From a virus, in IMG/VR virus record IMGVR_UViG_3300011114_000620, positions 1 through 30,879 of that record: a DNA stretch of 30,879 bases. One strand, given 5' to 3'. Each line of letters starts with the position of its first letter. Within the stretch, counting starts at the first letter, position 1. A program made the position numbers and the translations under genes. Below the pieces are notes generated by a model. The model worked only from the letters and a program-made list of their open reading frames with translations. It did no database searches and was not told where the DNA came from. Positions 8,946-21,175 of the stretch are shown in pieces.

Positions 8946-9154
8946 TCGATTCTCCATACCCGCACTCCATTGCCTTCCCGCCTAGCGGTAAATTTCATAC
9001 CTGTCCTTTTTTGTGCCTTGTAGTTCGCATTACAAATAATCTGAATCTTCGACTCAGGCACAAAGAAGCACTCACCCAATTCCATTTCTTTATAAGGATA
9101 CCTTTTAGTCCTTTCAGAAGGTAATGGAATGTTACTTTCTACAGCAATTGACAT
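8942..9154 (-). CDS. First gene of the leftward operon (70 aa)
   Basis: The product contains YPYKEMELGECFFVPE followed by a basic, strand-like part ending GMKFTARREGNGVRVWRIE. This resembles a small, widely spread phage family with the pattern YP-x-x-x-M-x-x-G-x-x-FFV, whose function I cannot name. The ribosome site TAAGGAG six bases before the ATG is the strongest in this arm. A promoter candidate lies 27 bases upstream. Confidence 0.7.
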   Translation of the reverse strand: MSIAVESNIPLPSERTKRYPYKEMELGECFFVPESKIQIICNANYKAQKRTGMKFTARREGNGVRVWRIE

Positions 9155-9180
9155 ATACTCTCCTTAATCTATTTAATCCA

Positions 9181-9209
9181 ATAATACACACTATGTTAGA
9201 AACATACAA
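9181..9209 (-). promoter_or_regulatory. Candidate leftward promoter of the packaging operon
   Basis: On the minus strand TTGTAT (9209-9204), a 17-base spacer and TATTAT (9186-9181) form a sigma70-like pair. The -10 matches at five of six positions, the -35 at three of six. Transcription would begin near 9174, about 20 bases before the start codon at 9154. It lies over the first codons of the rightward gene at 9193. Confidence 0.45.
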
Positions 9210-9903
9210 CGAGTATCACCTTGGCGATAACCTTGTACACCTTAACTATCTCAGGCGCTTACAACTCCCCTTGGGTGAGGACATTGTCCACCACTGCAAT
9301 CCTTTGCACCATAAGCAGCTCTTACCGCTAACCGAGGGTACAGCAATCACCTTAGCTGATCTGTACATACCACCCACAGCAGTTAACGCTTGGATTGGAA
9401 GGGATAACTACTTCTACAATCACCCCTTGCAGGCTAATTGGGTGTTGTTTCATTTATCTTGGTTCGATCATTTGTCTAATCTTTTAGGAGTAGACAACCC
9501 CATAGCTTGCAGGGAAGATCTACTCTTTGAGTACCCACTCCTAAACGCTCCCCTACCAATGTCTTTTGATACCTTAGTGGTCAACGCAGAGCCGAAATCA
9601 AACCAGTTACCAACCTTCTCTCATGGATTCTTTAACAAGCGGGTAAAAGAGCTATTAAACGCTGGCAAGAGGGTGATTACTACGAATCCCACAGGAATGT
9701 GCCTATCGACTTTAGAAATGGGTATGGATATCACTGCTATTGGTTCTCTATCCAAGTACTGTACCGCCATAGAAGGGGTGGCTACAGGTCCTATGTGGAC
9801 AACCTTCAATGTCTTTAATTTAGAGAATATCAAGAGTAGGGTTTTGTACTGCGATATCCAAACAGTCAATCTGACGGATAACACCATTACTAAAAAACTG
9901 TAA
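9193..9903 (+). CDS. GT9-like (heptosyltransferase-type) glycosyltransferase
   Basis: The 236-residue protein opens with YNEYHLGDNLVHLNYLRRLQ, the G-D-x-x-x-H/x-L-R pattern at the start of GT-B heptosyltransferase-like proteins. A second half has LVVNAEPKS, then NTNPTG-type and TAIEGVATGP segments expected of the nucleotide-sugar binding lobe. It is shorter than usual GT9 enzymes (about 320-350 residues). It stands alone between two divergent units. The ATG at 9193 has no visible ribosome site, so expression may be weak or leaderless. The assignment to GT9 is moderate. Confidence 0.55.
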   Translation: MLETYNEYHLGDNLVHLNYLRRLQLPLGEDIVHHCNPLHHKQLLPLTEGTAITLADLYIPPTAVNAWIGRDNYFYNHPLQANWVLFHLSWFDHLSNLLGVDNPIACREDLLFEYPLLNAPLPMSFDTLVVNAEPKSNQLPTFSHGFFNKRVKELLNAGKRVITTNPTGMCLSTLEMGMDITAIGSLSKYCTAIEGVATGPMWTTFNVFNLENIKSRVLYCDIQTVNLTDNTITKKL

Positions 9904-10345: not shown

Positions 10346-11206
10346 ATGAGCATAGAAAATAAAGTTTATCAACAAGTAACTGACAGAATTATTGAGCAGC
10401 TTGAAGCTGGTGCTATTCCATGGGTTAAGCCTTGGAACGCTAACAGTAGCGCTGATAAGAATGTTGTAAGTAAAAAAGAATACAACGGGATTAATCGTTT
10501 AATTCTAGGTATGAGTGGTTATGCCAATAGTGTATGGGGATCATTCAAACAATGGCAAGAATTAGGCGGTAATGTTGCTAAGGGTGAAAAAGGCACAATG
10601 ATTGTTTTTTACTCTCAAGTAGTTAAAAAAGAAATAAGAGCAAATGACACTCACCCCGAGAATTCTACTTATGCAATGCTGAAAAGCTATTATGTTTTTA
10701 ATGTAGATCAAGTTGAAGGTATTGAGATTGAAAAGCCCGAAGTATCACCTAGAGTAATTGAGCCTAGTATTGCACTTGATGAGCGTATCCTAAAATCAGG
10801 CGCCAATATTAAGCATGGTGGATCACAAGCATTTTACTCGCCTACTAATGACTCAATCGGTATGCCAGATCGTAATACATTTAGCGATGATAACAATTAC
10901 TATGCAACGATCTTGCATGAATTAACCCATTGGTCTGGTGCTAAACATAGGCTAGATCGTACCAAAGGCAAGCGCTTTGCTGATAGTGCCTATGCCTTTG
11001 AAGAGCTAGTGGCAGAAATGGGGGCAGCATTTTTATGCCAAGATTATGCAATTAGTGGCGATTTACGCCATGCGGGCTATATCGGTAATTGGCTCAAGTG
11101 TTTAAAAGCAGATAACAAGGCAATCTTTAACGCTGCTGCACTAGCTCAAAAAGCAGCAACTTATATCAATACCCTTGACGCAATAACAAACCAGGCAGCA
11201 GCTTAA
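10346..11206 (+). CDS. ardC: ArdC-type antirestriction protein
   Basis: The 286-residue product has the ArdC layout. The N-terminal single-strand DNA binding domain (residues about 5-125) opens VYQQVTDRIIEQLEAGAIPW and includes YNGINRLIL and GEKGTMIVFY. A C-terminal zincin-like domain carries HELTHW (H191, E192, H195) and a downstream Glu at EELVAEMG (about residue 224) as third zinc ligand. ArdC proteins of plasmids and phages bind ssDNA and shield incoming DNA from host restriction. First gene of the rightward early block, with AGGGG before the ATG. Confidence 0.85.
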   Translation: MSIENKVYQQVTDRIIEQLEAGAIPWVKPWNANSSADKNVVSKKEYNGINRLILGMSGYANSVWGSFKQWQELGGNVAKGEKGTMIVFYSQVVKKEIRANDTHPENSTYAMLKSYYVFNVDQVEGIEIEKPEVSPRVIEPSIALDERILKSGANIKHGGSQAFYSPTNDSIGMPDRNTFSDDNNYYATILHELTHWSGAKHRLDRTKGKRFADSAYAFEELVAEMGAAFLCQDYAISGDLRHAGYIGNWLKCLKADNKAIFNAAALAQKAATYINTLDAITNQAAA

Positions 11207-16420: not shown

Positions 16421-16630
16421 ATGAATGTACCGTACAGAACTAAGACAGGCATAGAAATTGGCAAGTATTACGAGAGGGATACCCGACCAGAAATATCAAG
16501 CGATATGGAGATTATTCAAAGCATTATGTTGGGTAAATATGAGTCGATTAGGCGTAAAACAGCCATTATTTATGCTTATTTTTTAGGCATTACACTGACA
16601 ATTTTTTGCTTGTTTGTGTTTGCTAAATGA
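16421..16630 (+). CDS. Membrane-anchored small protein (69 aa)
   Basis: The N-terminal 45 residues are polar (MNVPYRTKTGIEIGKYYERD). Residues about 48-67 form one membrane span (AIIYAYFLGITLTIFCLFVF). GGGGAT lies six bases before the ATG at 16421; starts at 16388 (TTG) and 16409 lack good sites. The stop overlaps the next start. It begins the coupled block that runs to the radical SAM gene. Function unknown; a membrane tether or holin-like peptide is possible. Confidence 0.55.
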   Translation: MNVPYRTKTGIEIGKYYERDTRPEISSDMEIIQSIMLGKYESIRRKTAIIYAYFLGITLTIFCLFVFAK

Positions 16631-17070
16631 GGGGTTCAAACACCTATTCTGAGAGGCAAACTGTTGCAAATAGGGGTGAGATATTGTTTGAGAAGTATTG
16701 CAAAGAAAACCACTATGAATATAAGCGAGTCGGTTTTGATGAGAAAAACAGCTTTATAAGCACTTTCTATGATTTGTCTACCTTACTACGCAATTTGCCA
16801 GATTATGTGATGGTGCGCCCAGATAGCACCTATGTGGTCAATGTAAAGGGTACAGCCAATCTTAAAAAGAAAGAGATTGATATGTTGCCATTGATGATGG
16901 AATGGTTCTCTAGTCGGGCAGCGCCCTTAATCTATGCTTTTTGTTTTGAAGCTAGTGATCCTTTGTTTGTTTACCCTGACCAGCTTATTAGTTTGTACCG
17001 TAGATCAGTTGATAAACAATGGTCTGATGGGGTCATTTACCGTACTTTGAATTTAATGGAATTTGCATGA
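16627..17070 (+). CDS. PD-(D/E)XK nuclease-like protein
   Basis: The 147-residue product shows the order expected of small Holliday-junction or restriction-type nucleases. Helix GEILFEKYCKEN has E19, then LPDYVMVRPDSTYVVNVKGT has D59 and N72-x-K74. The usual Glu/Asp two residues before Lys is Asn, so catalysis may be altered or lost. A conserved hydrophobic strand, PLIYAFCFEAS, follows. The gene is coupled to both neighbours. It may be a non-catalytic DNA-binding relative. Confidence 0.5.
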   Translation: MRGSNTYSERQTVANRGEILFEKYCKENHYEYKRVGFDEKNSFISTFYDLSTLLRNLPDYVMVRPDSTYVVNVKGTANLKKKEIDMLPLMMEWFSSRAAPLIYAFCFEASDPLFVYPDQLISLYRRSVDKQWSDGVIYRTLNLMEFA

Positions 17071-17684
17071 AACACGCTACTAAGGCAGAATTAATTGCGT
17101 TTGAGCAGGAAACAGCGCAGTTGTGGGAAAACGGGGATTTACCGTACCTTATTCACCTTTCAGGGGGTAATGAGGATTTTCTGATTGATTTGTTTGGGGA
17201 GGCGAGTGAAGGGGACTGGTTCTTTTCTACGCACCGTAATCACCACCACGCTCTTTTAGCGGGAATACCAAAAAATGAACTACAAAACACAATATTGGCT
17301 GGAAATTCTATGTTTGTTTATTCTAGGAAGCATCGTTTTTTTACTAGCAGTGTGCTTGCTGGCACTTGTTGTATTGCTGCTGGCGTAGCCTATGCCTTAA
17401 AGGAAGCGGGTAGTAGCAACCGTGTCTGGTGTTTTTTAGGTGACGGGGCTGAAGATCAAGGGCATTTTTATGAAGCAGTGCGTATGGTCGCAGGGCATGA
17501 TTTGCCTTGTACCTTTGTTATCGAGGACAACAATCGCTCAGTAGATACCACCTTATCAGGGCGTAATCCACTAGAGTTTAGGTTTAGGATGCCAGGCTGT
17601 GTGATTCGTAACCACTACACCCCAACTTATCCTCATGCTGGTAACGGTACTAAGAAGCACATTATCTTTAAGGATAAAAGGTGA
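17067..17684 (+). CDS. Thiamine diphosphate enzyme, E1-alpha-like half
   Basis: The 205-residue product matches the PP domain of 2-oxoacid dehydrogenase E1-alpha. It has STHRNHHHALLAGI (54-67), then SSVLAGTCCIAAGVAYALKE, then the cofactor motif from GDG (125-127, FLGDGAEDQGHFYEAV) to NN (155-156, FVIEDNN). Together these hold magnesium and the diphosphate of thiamine diphosphate. Usual E1-alpha chains are about 320-400 residues, so N- and C-terminal parts are missing. The partner half is encoded 1.1 kb downstream. No E2 or E3 gene is seen, so it is probably not a dehydrogenase complex; a decarboxylase or carboligase acting on a small keto acid or sugar is likelier. Confidence 0.75.
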   Translation: MKHATKAELIAFEQETAQLWENGDLPYLIHLSGGNEDFLIDLFGEASEGDWFFSTHRNHHHALLAGIPKNELQNTILAGNSMFVYSRKHRFFTSSVLAGTCCIAAGVAYALKEAGSSNRVWCFLGDGAEDQGHFYEAVRMVAGHDLPCTFVIEDNNRSVDTTLSGRNPLEFRFRMPGCVIRNHYTPTYPHAGNGTKKHIIFKDKR

Positions 17685-18781
17685 ACAAAGTCTATTTTGG
17701 TGATTGTCGAGATTCCATGCGCCAAATGGCTAAAGACGGCATAAAAGTGCAAACTTGTATTACTAGCCCACCTTATTATGGTCTTAGAGATTATGGAACT
17801 GCTACATGGGAAAGTGGAGATATAAATTGTGATCATAAAGAATATTTAGGTGGTCATGGTGATAAATCACAAAAACAATTAACTTCTAGTGGGACTCAAC
17901 AATATAACTATCGTGATATTTGTAAAAAATGTGGTGCTAAAAGAGTTGATAACCAAATAGGTCTTGAACAAACACCAAAAGAATTTATTGATAACCTTGT
18001 AGAAGTATTTGCTTGTGTTTGGGACATTCTTGAAAATGACGGAACTCTTTGGGTAAACCTTGGTGACAGTTATTACAACTACAGACCAGGCAAAGGACAA
18101 GCATTGAGCAAGCAATCTGTATCCAATAGCCTTCAAGACTTGCCGCAAGACTGTGCAAGAAGGGGAAATAAATTAGAAGGCTATAAAGAAAAAGATTTGA
18201 TGGGTATGCCTTGGAGATTAGCTTTTGCTTTGCAAGACTTTGGTTGGTATCTTAGACAAGACATTATTTGGCATAAACCAAACCCTATGCCTGAATCAAT
18301 AAAAGACAGATGCACAAAAAGCCATGAATATATATTTCTTTTAACTAAAAATCCACAATATTATTTTGACAGCGAATCAATAAAAGAAGAATCTATTAAT
18401 TCGGAAGAACAACAAATTGCAAAAAGAAATAAAAAACAACATAGATTTAATGCTCAAGAACATGAAACAAAATTTGTTCAGCACAATTTTTCTAAAATAA
18501 AAAATACTTATGAAAAAAGAAATAAAAGAGATGTATGGACTGTATCTGTAAAACCATACTCAGGGGCTCATTTTGCTGTATATCCAGAAGAATTAATTGA
18601 GCCTTGTGTAATGGCTGGTAGTCGTGTTGGTGATATTGTTTTAGACCCTTTTTTTGGTAGCGGGACAACTGGGGCTGTTGCTCAAAAATTAGGCAGGCAA
18701 TATATAGGCTGCGAACTTAACAAAGATTATGAACAATTACAAAATGATAGGCTTCAACAAATGGCTATGGAGTTAATATGA
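17681..18781 (+). CDS. DNA methyltransferase, N4-cytosine/N6-adenine type
   Basis: The 366-residue product has motif IV TSPPYYGLRDYG near residues 28-39 and motif I DPFFGSGTTG at about 322-331. This is the beta-class order of exocyclic-amino DNA methyltransferases. Between them lies a possible metal-binding insertion (CDH near 48, CKKCG near 79). The start is GTG, overlapping the upstream TGA (GTGA), and the stop overlaps the next start (ATGA). The middle is unusually AT-rich: hand counts of 18361-18480 give 22-28% GC against 38-45% in the neighbours. No restriction partner is adjacent, so it probably protects phage DNA. Confidence 0.85.
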   Translation: MNKVYFGDCRDSMRQMAKDGIKVQTCITSPPYYGLRDYGTATWESGDINCDHKEYLGGHGDKSQKQLTSSGTQQYNYRDICKKCGAKRVDNQIGLEQTPKEFIDNLVEVFACVWDILENDGTLWVNLGDSYYNYRPGKGQALSKQSVSNSLQDLPQDCARRGNKLEGYKEKDLMGMPWRLAFALQDFGWYLRQDIIWHKPNPMPESIKDRCTKSHEYIFLLTKNPQYYFDSESIKEESINSEEQQIAKRNKKQHRFNAQEHETKFVQHNFSKIKNTYEKRNKRDVWTVSVKPYSGAHFAVYPEELIEPCVMAGSRVGDIVLDPFFGSGTTGAVAQKLGRQYIGCELNKDYEQLQNDRLQQMAMELI

Positions 18782-19293
18782 CTTATAAAGACGCACTAAT
18801 CCGTGCCAATACTTATTTGGCTGCTGATCCTAAAACTAGATTCATAGGCTATGGTTTACTCAAAGGTCGAGCTTTGGGTACGCTAATCAATGTGCCAGCA
18901 GCCCAGATCATTGAGATGCCCGTAGCTGAGAACCTAATGATGGATATGGCTATTGGTATGGCGCTTGTAGGTTGCAAGCCAGTCGTATTCTTAGAGCGCA
19001 TGGACTTTTTAATGAACTGCATGGACGCTCTAGTTAATCACCTAGATAAGATCAGCACGATCTCCAATGGTGAATTTATGCCAAAAGTCATTATTCGGTG
19101 CATTGTAGGCAACAAAAACAAGCCTTTATACACTGGATTGACCCATATTCAGGACTTTACGGAAGGGTTACAGGCTATGGTAACTATGCCAGTAGTGCAA
19201 TTAAAGACCGTGGCTGACATCAATTATTCGTATGAAAAAGCCGACAAAGCCTTATATTCAACGGTTCTAGTGGAATACAAGGACCTAATATGA
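18778..19293 (+). CDS. Thiamine diphosphate enzyme, E1-beta-like half
   Basis: The 171-residue product matches the Pyr domain of E1-beta/transketolase. IIEMPVAENLMMDMAIGMAL carries E51, equal to the Glu that activates the thiazolium through the aminopyrimidine ring. GCKPVVFLERMDFLMNCMDA and LVNHLDKI follow, as in E1-beta (DF...NQ-x-x-K). It stops where the transketolase C-terminal domain would begin (usual length about 325). With the product of 17067-17684 it would make the minimal two-domain active site. ATGA overlaps join it to the methyltransferase and radical SAM genes. Confidence 0.75.
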   Translation: MTYKDALIRANTYLAADPKTRFIGYGLLKGRALGTLINVPAAQIIEMPVAENLMMDMAIGMALVGCKPVVFLERMDFLMNCMDALVNHLDKISTISNGEFMPKVIIRCIVGNKNKPLYTGLTHIQDFTEGLQAMVTMPVVQLKTVADINYSYEKADKALYSTVLVEYKDLI

Positions 19294-20384
19294 AAACGAA
19301 CAAATACTCGGATTTCAAGATTTTTCATGTGGCGGGGAAGGTTAATTCGTTTTTAGAAAATACCATTTCTGCCCCTATCTATGTTCGTATCAAGCCAATC
19401 AACCTATGCAACCACGGGTGCTTCTTTTGCGCCTACAGTACGGGCTTTAGGGTCAAGGACGGGGGCGAGGAAGAACATATCCACACAGGTATGCACGAGG
19501 ACATGAAAGAGGACGACACCATTCCTAGAATGAAAATGTTAGAGATACTGCATGACCTATACAAAATGGGTGTCAAGGCTATCACTTACTCTGGCGGGGG
19601 TGAGCCACTGATGCACCCAGACATAGTCGAGTTCATAGTCAAGACCTTTGAGTACAACATGGATGTATCCATTATCACTAACGGTCAAAATTTAGCCAAG
19701 GAAAGAGCCGTGGTGCTGCGTAATGCTAAGTGGGTAAGGGTTAGCATGGACTACACCAATGGCGCAGAAATGAAGCGTTTTAGGAATGTTCCAGAAAAGA
19801 GTTTTGACAGTGTGATTAAGAACATCGAGGAGTTTGCGAAGTACAAAGCAAAAGACTGTGATCTAGCAGTTAATTATATTGTGCACCGCAACAATTACGA
19901 AAACTTGGGGGTGTTTACACGCCTATTGAAAAGTATTGGAGTGGAAAATGTGCGCTACAGCCCTATGTATGTACCAGATTTTTATAATTATCACTATGCC
20001 ATTGCTGATTCTGTTAATGATCAACTCAAAGAAGCTGCCACCTTGGTTGACGATAACTTTAGTGTTAATAGCACTTATAACATTACTCCTGGCAGCAGCC
20101 ACTCGCCCATCAGGTCTTATAAGCGTTGCTACATTATGCAAACCGTACCCGTTATCGGTGCTGACCTTGGAGTCTATGCCTGCCACAACAAAGCCTATGA
20201 CAGCACGGGCTTGATTGGTTCACTCAAAGATCAGAGCTTTAAAGACCTGTGGTACAGCCAAGCCACTAAGGACTACATGATTAACTTTAATGCCAAGCGC
20301 ACCTGTTTGCATGAATGTTCCAATGACCGTAAGAATATTTTGATTAACGAAGTAGTACAAGCCAGTACCGATAACTTTATTTAG
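19290..20384 (+). CDS. Radical SAM enzyme with SPASM-like C-terminus
   Basis: The 364-residue product has the [4Fe-4S] motif C40-x3-C44-x2-C47 (NLCNHGCFFCAYS) and the SAM-binding GGEP motif at about 102-106 (YSGGGEPLMHP). The C-terminal part has C280, C298, C339 and C343 with VYACHNKAYD, GSLKDQSFKDLWYS and CLHECS, like SPASM/twitch domains that hold extra clusters. Such enzymes cleave SAM to a 5'-deoxyadenosyl radical to modify peptides, sugars or nucleobases. It directly follows the thiamine diphosphate pair by an ATGA overlap, so the two activities are probably steps of one path. The substrate is unknown. Confidence 0.85.
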   Translation: MKTNKYSDFKIFHVAGKVNSFLENTISAPIYVRIKPINLCNHGCFFCAYSTGFRVKDGGEEEHIHTGMHEDMKEDDTIPRMKMLEILHDLYKMGVKAITYSGGGEPLMHPDIVEFIVKTFEYNMDVSIITNGQNLAKERAVVLRNAKWVRVSMDYTNGAEMKRFRNVPEKSFDSVIKNIEEFAKYKAKDCDLAVNYIVHRNNYENLGVFTRLLKSIGVENVRYSPMYVPDFYNYHYAIADSVNDQLKEAATLVDDNFSVNSTYNITPGSSHSPIRSYKRCYIMQTVPVIGADLGVYACHNKAYDSTGLIGSLKDQSFKDLWYSQATKDYMINFNAKRTCLHECSNDRKNILINEVVQASTDNFI

Positions 20385-20392
20385 GGATAGAT

Positions 20393-21175
20393 ATGCCAAG
20401 GAAGAAGAAGATAGTAGAGCCAGCCGTACCCCAAAAGATTAAACTATTCATAGCTACACCCATGTATGGTGGTATGTGTGCAGGGTTTTACACCCAATCT
20501 ATTCTGCAATTGGTAAGCGTTTGCCGTGAACATAATATTGATTTGAGCTTTAGCTTTATGTTCAATGAGAGCCTGATAACACGGGCAAGGAACGCTATCA
20601 CCCACCAGTTTCTCAAGAGTGACTCAACTCACATGATGTTTATTGATTCAGACATTAAGTTTAATCCTGCTGACATAGTGCCTATGCTGTCGGTTGATAA
20701 GGAGATTATCTGTGGCATATACCCTAAGAAAGAGATCAATTGGGGTAGCGTTAAGCGGGCTATGGACAATGGCGTATCCTTTGACAATCTCAAGAGCCAT
20801 ACAGGTAGCTTTGTGGTCAACCTAGTGGACTATGTGGGTGAAGTAACCGTACCTGTGAACAAGCCAGTCGAGATATTTAATGGTGGTACAGGTTTTATGC
20901 TGATTAAGCGAGAAGTGTTTACCAAACTAGCCGATCATGTTCCACAATATGAAAATGATGTAGCTGATCTATCAGGACAACTAGAACAAAAAGAAAAAAT
21001 TTATGAGTTCTTTGCCACTAGCATTGAACCCGTGACTAATCGCCTGTTGTCTGAGGACTATCACTTCTGCCGTATCTGGCGGTTGATTGACGGCAAAGTA
21101 TGGGCAGCGCCTTGGTGTCAGTTAGCCCACATAGGTACATACGCTTTTGAAGGTAACTTAACGCCCTCGCCCTGA
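20393..21175 (+). CDS. GT-A fold glycosyltransferase
   Basis: The 260-residue product has a basic leader (MPRKKKIVEPAVPQK), then IKLFIATPMYGGMCAGFYTQ, RARNAITHQFLKSDSTHMMF and the metal-binding IDSDIKFNPADIV (DSD about 84-86). NGGTGFMLIKREVF and SEDYHFCRIWRL are the acceptor/metal His region. No membrane span is seen. It starts eight bases after the radical SAM stop with AGGGAT upstream, closing the block, and probably transfers the product of that path. Its 3' end overlaps a leftward gene by 18 bases. Confidence 0.8.
   Translation: MPRKKKIVEPAVPQKIKLFIATPMYGGMCAGFYTQSILQLVSVCREHNIDLSFSFMFNESLITRARNAITHQFLKSDSTHMMFIDSDIKFNPADIVPMLSVDKEIICGIYPKKEINWGSVKRAMDNGVSFDNLKSHTGSFVVNLVDYVGEVTVPVNKPVEIFNGGTGFMLIKREVFTKLADHVPQYENDVADLSGQLEQKEKIYEFFATSIEPVTNRLLSEDYHFCRIWRLIDGKVWAAPWCQLAHIGTYAFEGNLTPSP

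Follow-up and report, generated by a model that had tools for sequence, protein, structure and literature searches.

The phage record IMGVR_UViG_3300011114_000620 of IMG/VR, analysed here as a single stretch of 30,879 bases (the window), carries a compact cassette of three genes, all on the forward strand. Two of them encode the halves of a thiamine diphosphate (ThDP) enzyme: an alpha half of 205 residues (17067-17684), corresponding to the PP domain of E1-alpha, and a beta half of 171 residues (18778-19293), corresponding to the Pyr domain of E1-beta. The third encodes a radical S-adenosylmethionine (radical SAM) enzyme of 364 residues (19290-20384). Portal, terminase, major head and endolysin genes are also present in the window. 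A reading of this DNA from the letters alone (the sequence-only reading) had given the same coordinates, lengths and named residues, and had described the genes as joined by four-base stop/start overlaps. Such overlaps do occur, at the starts 17067, 17681, 18778 and 19290. The halves are not neighbours, however, as a methyltransferase gene that went unmentioned (17681-18781) lies between them.

A ThDP enzyme in two minimal halves

Both halves are closer in sequence to 2-oxoacid dehydrogenase E1 than to transketolase. The alpha half matches PF00676 (E1_dh, 1.8e-17), TIGR03182 (3.4e-27) and residues 8-197 of the phage protein family phrog_34187 (2.4e-67). The beta half matches PF02779 (Transket_pyr) at 3.4e-5, slightly below the family cut-off, and is also recovered by E1-beta models (4.5e-10), by an E1-beta profile in the PDB (2.6e-16) and by residues 237-402 of phrog_34187 (1.2e-44). 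Low-identity bacterial matches to the alpha half (L051-L073), apparently ordinary E1-type genes, were excluded from the analysis.

The cofactor-binding residues are largely conserved. Among 22 aligned alpha sequences, GDG 125-127 and R57 are invariant and N155 is kept in more than 90%; N156 is not conserved. The motif GDG...N aligns with human E1-alpha. H59 is a further motif residue of the alpha half. In the beta half, E51, which aligns with E1-beta, and H123 of the HxQ motif are invariant across the aligned homologues. We take these positions to be those that form the metal/ThDP motif, the catalytic glutamate and the HxQ histidine in E1 structures.

Structural modelling agrees with this assignment. 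The alignments used for structure prediction excluded the public phage records L001-L003. A homologue in which alpha and beta are fused (L042) was predicted by AlphaFold2 at a mean predicted local distance difference test score (pLDDT) of 90.8 and a predicted template modelling score (pTM) of 0.93. This model, of the fused homologue rather than of the window pair, superposes on the PP and Pyr domains of transketolase over about 350 residues (Z 20-21, root-mean-square deviation (rmsd) 3.0-4.0), and its beta half superposes on E1-beta with Z 21.9 and rmsd 1.7, the C-terminal domain not being included. The conclusion that 17067-17684 and 18778-19293 are the PP and Pyr halves of one minimal ThDP enzyme holds.

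The nearest characterised family is the E1 of pyruvate and branched-chain 2-oxoacid dehydrogenases, with which the pair shares the Mg/ThDP motif, the catalytic glutamate and HxQ. Unlike those enzymes, the phage pair comes without E2 and E3 and without a transketolase-C domain, and its alpha half is barely over half the usual length. Transketolase-C (PF02780) is unmatched in the window and seven related records, the beta half stopping at 171 residues. The same eight records contain no match to E2 (PF00198) or lipoyl (PF00364) domains, with positive controls; this agrees with the claim that no E2 is encoded; the host might supply one. The ratio of nonsynonymous to synonymous substitution, measured against close relatives, is 0.04-0.10 in the alpha gene and 0.04-0.07 in both the beta and the radical SAM gene. 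Purifying selection acts on all three, and the pattern is therefore not a product of chance.

The radical SAM partner

The protein encoded at 19290-20384 is a twitch-type radical SAM enzyme, matching Radical_SAM (PF04055, 2.2e-17) and SPASM (PF13186), the latter reflecting a C-terminal SPASM/twitch region. The CxxxCxxC cysteines (C40, C44 and C47) and the four extra cysteines noticed earlier (C280, C298, C339 and C343) are invariant in alignments of 29-30 sequences that include divergent homologues. Its AlphaFold2 model (pLDDT 88, pTM 0.88) has its best matches, extending over much of the protein, in DesII (Z 23.9, 336 aligned residues, rmsd 4.6), SkfB (Z 23.4), BlsE (Z 22.6), PqqE (Z 20.6) and, over 224 residues, BtrN (Z 16.6). 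DesII and BlsE are also among its top sequence matches, and identity to DesII, BlsE and BtrN is 13-23%.

These ties to the DesII/BlsE/BtrN group are ones of fold and weak sequence similarity only. The BlsE family model scores the protein at 51.6 of 400 bits, which places it outside that family, and it fits no NCBIfam equivalog, all scores lying far under cut-off. The first two auxiliary cysteines align with those of BtrN; the twitch region alone retrieves BtrN with an E value no better than 0.34, so that the link to BtrN rests on fold and cysteine positions. Since the substrates of DesII, BlsE and BtrN are sugars or cyclitols but those of SkfB and PqqE are peptides, fold alone leaves the substrate unnamed. 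The auxiliary cluster of BtrN has four cysteine ligands and serves a two-electron oxidation, unlike that of MoaA (PMC9012708), and the dehydrogenation of TDP-quinovose by DesII has been described (PMC11434129). Both DesII and BtrN can turn an alcohol into a ketone, and the four invariant auxiliary cysteines, a feature shared with BtrN, favour an oxidase role for the phage enzyme.

Two relatives of this gene were also noted. In a 199-kb phage contig (L026:5157-7280) the radical SAM gene contains an intein (Hint_2 1.7e-7, Intein_splicing 1.4e-5) that sits within CxxxCxxC, immediately before the third cluster cysteine. In a podovirus-like phage (MW202801; L235:6995-11658), a distant relative (25%) lies between capsid and tail genes, followed by genes annotated as glycosyltransferase, PhyH-like, methyltransferase, NodB-like and a second glycosyltransferase.

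Recurrence and exchange of parts

Homologues were found in 39 viral contigs starting from the alpha half, in 80 from the radical SAM enzyme and in 80 from the fused form, many of the IMG/VR loci being near-copies of each other. They also occur in a 735-kb phage, in cyanophages and in seven bacterial or archaeal contigs. The cassette is found in three ARRANGEMENTS: the window type, beta-radical SAM-alpha, and fused alpha-beta. The window type runs alpha, a variable slot, beta, radical SAM and glycosyltransferase. The second order occurs in unrelated phages, the 735-kb phage included, among runs of glycosyltransferases, methyltransferases (one of them PF08484) and an epimerase-like gene. The third is phrog_34187, present in cyanophages S-SM2 and P-TIM68, where the protein is annotated as 'transketolase central region'; the fused gene stands beside a zinc-type alcohol dehydrogenase of the medium-chain dehydrogenase/reductase (MDR) superfamily and mostly also beside an HldE-like kinase.

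The window pair is homologous to phrog_34187 (50-52% identical for alpha, 43-44% for beta), and its ThDP gene is consequently not new to phages. The cyanophage form lies in a sugar-pathway gene cluster and is listed in PHROGs as of unknown function. It differs from the window form in being a single chain that accompanies an MDR dehydrogenase and an HldE-like kinase rather than a radical SAM enzyme.

Wherever a contig extends far enough, the radical SAM gene is accompanied by a ThDP pair. The converse count, restricted to alpha-anchored loci whose two flanks each extend for at least 2.5 kb, gave 18 loci with a radical SAM gene and 17 with an MDR gene, none having both and none neither. The radical SAM and MDR proteins are thus two redox enzymes occupying one place. 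The expectation that the gene set would be found elsewhere is amply supported, other gene orders included, and together with the conserved residues this recurrence bears out the view of one ThDP enzyme functionally tied to its radical SAM neighbour.

The ThDP component can also be exchanged. Four contigs (L132, L133, L134 and L138) lack alpha and beta and have in their place a minimal split transketolase pair and a methyltransferase. They are otherwise collinear with L128, L135 and L148 on both flanks and through the radical SAM gene, at 71-93% DNA identity. The split transketolase halves, of 213 and 151 residues, match PF00456 (4.3e-12) and NF004559 (2.3e-30), and PF02779 (1.6e-22), respectively. 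Because the first half is 99-100% identical across all four contigs, the swap represents one event. This natural replacement beside the same radical SAM gene suggests that the latter requires some ThDP enzyme belonging to the E1/transketolase type.

Cellular relatives have a similar composition. The bacterial or archaeal contigs L044, L045, L048 and L050 combine the ThDP pair with one or more radical SAM genes, and at L045:5863-12970 and L050:4856-10880 the pair stands with two or three different radical SAM genes. In L045, lptC and an ABC ATPase gene follow directly downstream, an arrangement suggestive of a lipopolysaccharide-transport setting on a cellular chromosome. The L045 and L050 loci are possibly a cellular version of the pathway.

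The slot between the halves is empty, with alpha and beta overlapping by 4 nt, in 24 of 51 related window-type loci. Elsewhere it holds a methyltransferase or, in most of these loci, other genes: Mom (L007; PF25680, 1.1e-39), a C5-methyltransferase-like gene, small genes, or a relative of the window gene 16627-17070. The latter, which lies directly upstream of alpha in the window and has no family match, has a 50% identical relative in the slot of L014 (6791-7282), L017 and L018. In the window the slot encodes an N6/N4-type DNA methyltransferase of 366 residues (17681-18781, forward strand; PF01555, 1.9e-52), and DNA-modification genes recur there (window, L005, L007, L009 and L011). The methyltransferase was considered as a working part and rejected, since the slot is interchangeable or empty.

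The forward-strand gene at 20393-21175, which starts 8 nt past the radical SAM gene, encodes a GT-A-like putative glycosyltransferase (phrog_1574, 3.3e-47) that the sequence-only reading had placed after the radical SAM step. A dedicated role as the last step is unsupported. Copies 68-69% identical are retained in MW202825 and MW202753, both without the cassette, and the family occurs in 63 phage records in total; it is therefore not cassette-specific but a core gene of this phage group.

Better linked to the cassette is an additional forward-strand gene, 9124-9903, which probably starts at 9193 and encodes an LGDN protein. With 33-41% identity and E values of 1e-31 to 1e-41, it is homologous to genes directly adjoining the cassette in other phages, where they are located beside beta (L028, L032 and L126-L148) or separate alpha from beta (L119-L124); the order alpha, LGDN gene, beta, radical SAM is seen in six contigs. 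Of the window-type records long enough to include this position, nearly all have the gene, L109 being the sole exception. No homologue was found in MW202825 or MW202753, the nearest named phages without the cassette, and a search of 50,697 phage records returned no match. Its assignment to GT9 was tried and is unconfirmed: the L032 relative has no Pfam match, hhalign comparison (with shallow profiles) was not significant, and the LGD motif is the sole feature in common with GT9 proteins. Homology between the LGDN protein and the upstream genes of the MDR branch was likewise not confirmed. The same early region of the window also encodes an anti-restriction protein (10346-11206; phrog_7245, 1e-84).

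A possible route to branched sugars

The cassette may be a two-step module for two-carbon branching of sugars, a reading to which we assign a probability of about 45%. The radical SAM enzyme would first oxidise one hydroxyl to a ketone on a sugar, probably a nucleoside diphosphate (NDP)-sugar or a glycan precursor. A 5'-deoxyadenosyl radical would initiate the reaction and an all-cysteine-ligated auxiliary 4Fe-4S cluster would take up the electrons, on the model of ketone formation by BtrN and, with TDP-quinovose, by DesII. The alpha/beta pair, acting without E2 or E3, would then move an activated two-carbon unit, with pyruvate as the donor of an acetyl group or a ketose as the donor of a glycoloyl group, onto the carbonyl to give a branched or chain-extended sugar. 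Phage or host glycosyltransferases might finally attach this sugar to a glycan at the surface of the virion or infected cell. The order proposed earlier, ThDP enzyme before radical SAM enzyme, is more likely the reverse.

We infer both steps from enzyme families, conserved residues, the fold of the fused homologue and recurrent linkage, which are themselves observed. A BtrN-like four-cysteine cluster and an MDR dehydrogenase in the radical SAM enzyme's place both point to oxidation. The occurrence of an E1-like pair and of a split transketolase, the two kinds of ThDP enzyme known or proposed to branch sugars, beside one and the same radical SAM gene points to a keto-sugar and a two-carbon transfer, and the gene orders other than that of the window adjoin glycosyltransferases, epimerases and C-methyltransferases.

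Known branching enzymes offer a precedent. Those that use ThDP include E1-alpha/beta-like pairs (alphaKADH2) acting on keto-sugars, an activity established in vitro for KbDH on ketones and by genetics for the others (PMC12247030, PMC4802897). The alphaKADH2 enzymes of the aldgamycin, avilamycin, paulomycin (Plm8/Plm9) and kibdelomycin (KbDH-alpha/beta) pathways are, like the phage pair, stand-alone E1-like pairs in a sugar pathway (PMC12247030, PMC4802897). In comparison with them, the phage pair keeps the E1-family catalytic motifs; it differs in being phage-borne, in consisting of cofactor-binding domains only, with no transketolase-C, and in having a radical SAM or MDR partner. In sugar branching, split transketolases have been proposed to act after an oxidoreductase, as in the two-carbon addition suggested for miharamycin and amipurimycin (PMC12247030). 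The split transketolase beside the same radical SAM gene in L132, L133, L134 and L138 resembles these, unlike the window pair, which is E1-like by sequence; their role is also a proposal.

Several observations weigh against the branching proposal. The transketolase swap is confined to one lineage, and about two partner changes suffice on the alpha-half tree, so that the mutual exclusion of radical SAM and MDR genes reflects few evolutionary events. No gene for NDP-sugar synthesis was recognised in the window fragment, and the MDR loci, with their HldE-like kinases and heptose-pathway genes, would fit a free sugar-phosphate route equally. DesII and BlsE also deaminate or decarboxylate, and SkfB and PqqE, which modify peptides, have scores almost as high; the fold therefore does not fix sugar oxidation. 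The likeness to known branching enzymes, moreover, was drawn from published descriptions rather than from sequences.

The main rival, although unlikely, is that the pair is a miniature transketolase whose ketol transfer yields a ketose phosphate such as a heptulose. This would lead to a heptose-like NDP-sugar that the radical SAM or MDR enzyme modifies afterwards, the product being a linear higher-carbon sugar. The cyanophage fused homologues adjoin an HldE-type kinase (TIGR02198, 4.5e-29), phosphoheptose isomerase, a nucleotidyltransferase and an epimerase; L047 has GmhB-, HldE- and epimerase-like genes nearby (read by eye); and a split transketolase has been able to replace the pair. However, the HldE-like kinase was not found beside radical SAM-type loci, no heptose-pathway gene was recognised in the window, and the pair's E1-like sequence does not favour a transketolase. 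It is improbable that the radical SAM enzyme instead removes or moves a group, by deamination, decarboxylation or epimerisation, with the ThDP enzyme acting on its product or in parallel: the closest sugar-acting folds are indeed a deaminase (DesII) and a decarboxylase (BlsE), but the zinc dehydrogenase in its place and the BtrN-like cluster argue for oxidation.

Uses outside glycan synthesis carry far less weight. The window cassette has early genes, RusA and RecT-like ones included, for neighbours, and the slot is repeatedly occupied by an N6/N4 methyltransferase, Mom or a C5-methyltransferase-like gene, as might be expected if the cassette supplied a sugar or carbon unit for hypermodification of phage DNA or nucleotides. 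This option, raised by the sequence-only reading, is very improbable, as its support is positional: the slot has no fixed content and is often empty, and the homologues known from other phages and from bacterial contigs occur in glycan, lipopolysaccharide-transport and glycosyltransferase surroundings. Slightly less credible still is ordinary auxiliary metabolism, in which a 2-oxoacid decarboxylase or acetoin-type enzyme would aid host energy or redox balance; the family matches are to pyruvate dehydrogenase E1, but the missing E2, lipoyl and transketolase-C domains and the constant tie to a radical SAM or MDR gene and to sugar genes argue otherwise.

The earlier observations are thus confirmed and their interpretation is partly supported. 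The kinds of enzyme are known; a phage-borne cassette of a cut-down ThDP enzyme and a radical SAM enzyme is real, recurrent and apparently undescribed, and the reaction it performs is a supported guess. Searches of the open-access literature found no paper joining phage genomes, radical SAM and transketolase, which is weak evidence of novelty, and nothing relevant on 'transketolase central region' in phages, most subscription journals being outside their scope. The fuller claim, of an undescribed phage pathway in which a radical SAM-made keto-sugar receives a two-carbon branch from a ThDP enzyme lacking the C domain and then coats virions or infected cells, is more doubtful than the branching proposal itself.

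The cassette offers a defined set of three or four genes for co-expression, together with a concrete prediction: a keto-sugar, then two-carbon addition. Its natural swaps, of E1-like pair for split transketolase and of radical SAM enzyme for zinc dehydrogenase, allow function to be cross-checked in three enzyme combinations. Cut down to two cofactor-binding domains, the pair would also be an unusually small enzyme of the E1/transketolase type, useful for carboligation. For phage biology, the interest lies in rare sugars that phages make themselves, whose chemistry is mostly obscure and which can change adsorption, superinfection and the recognition of virions.

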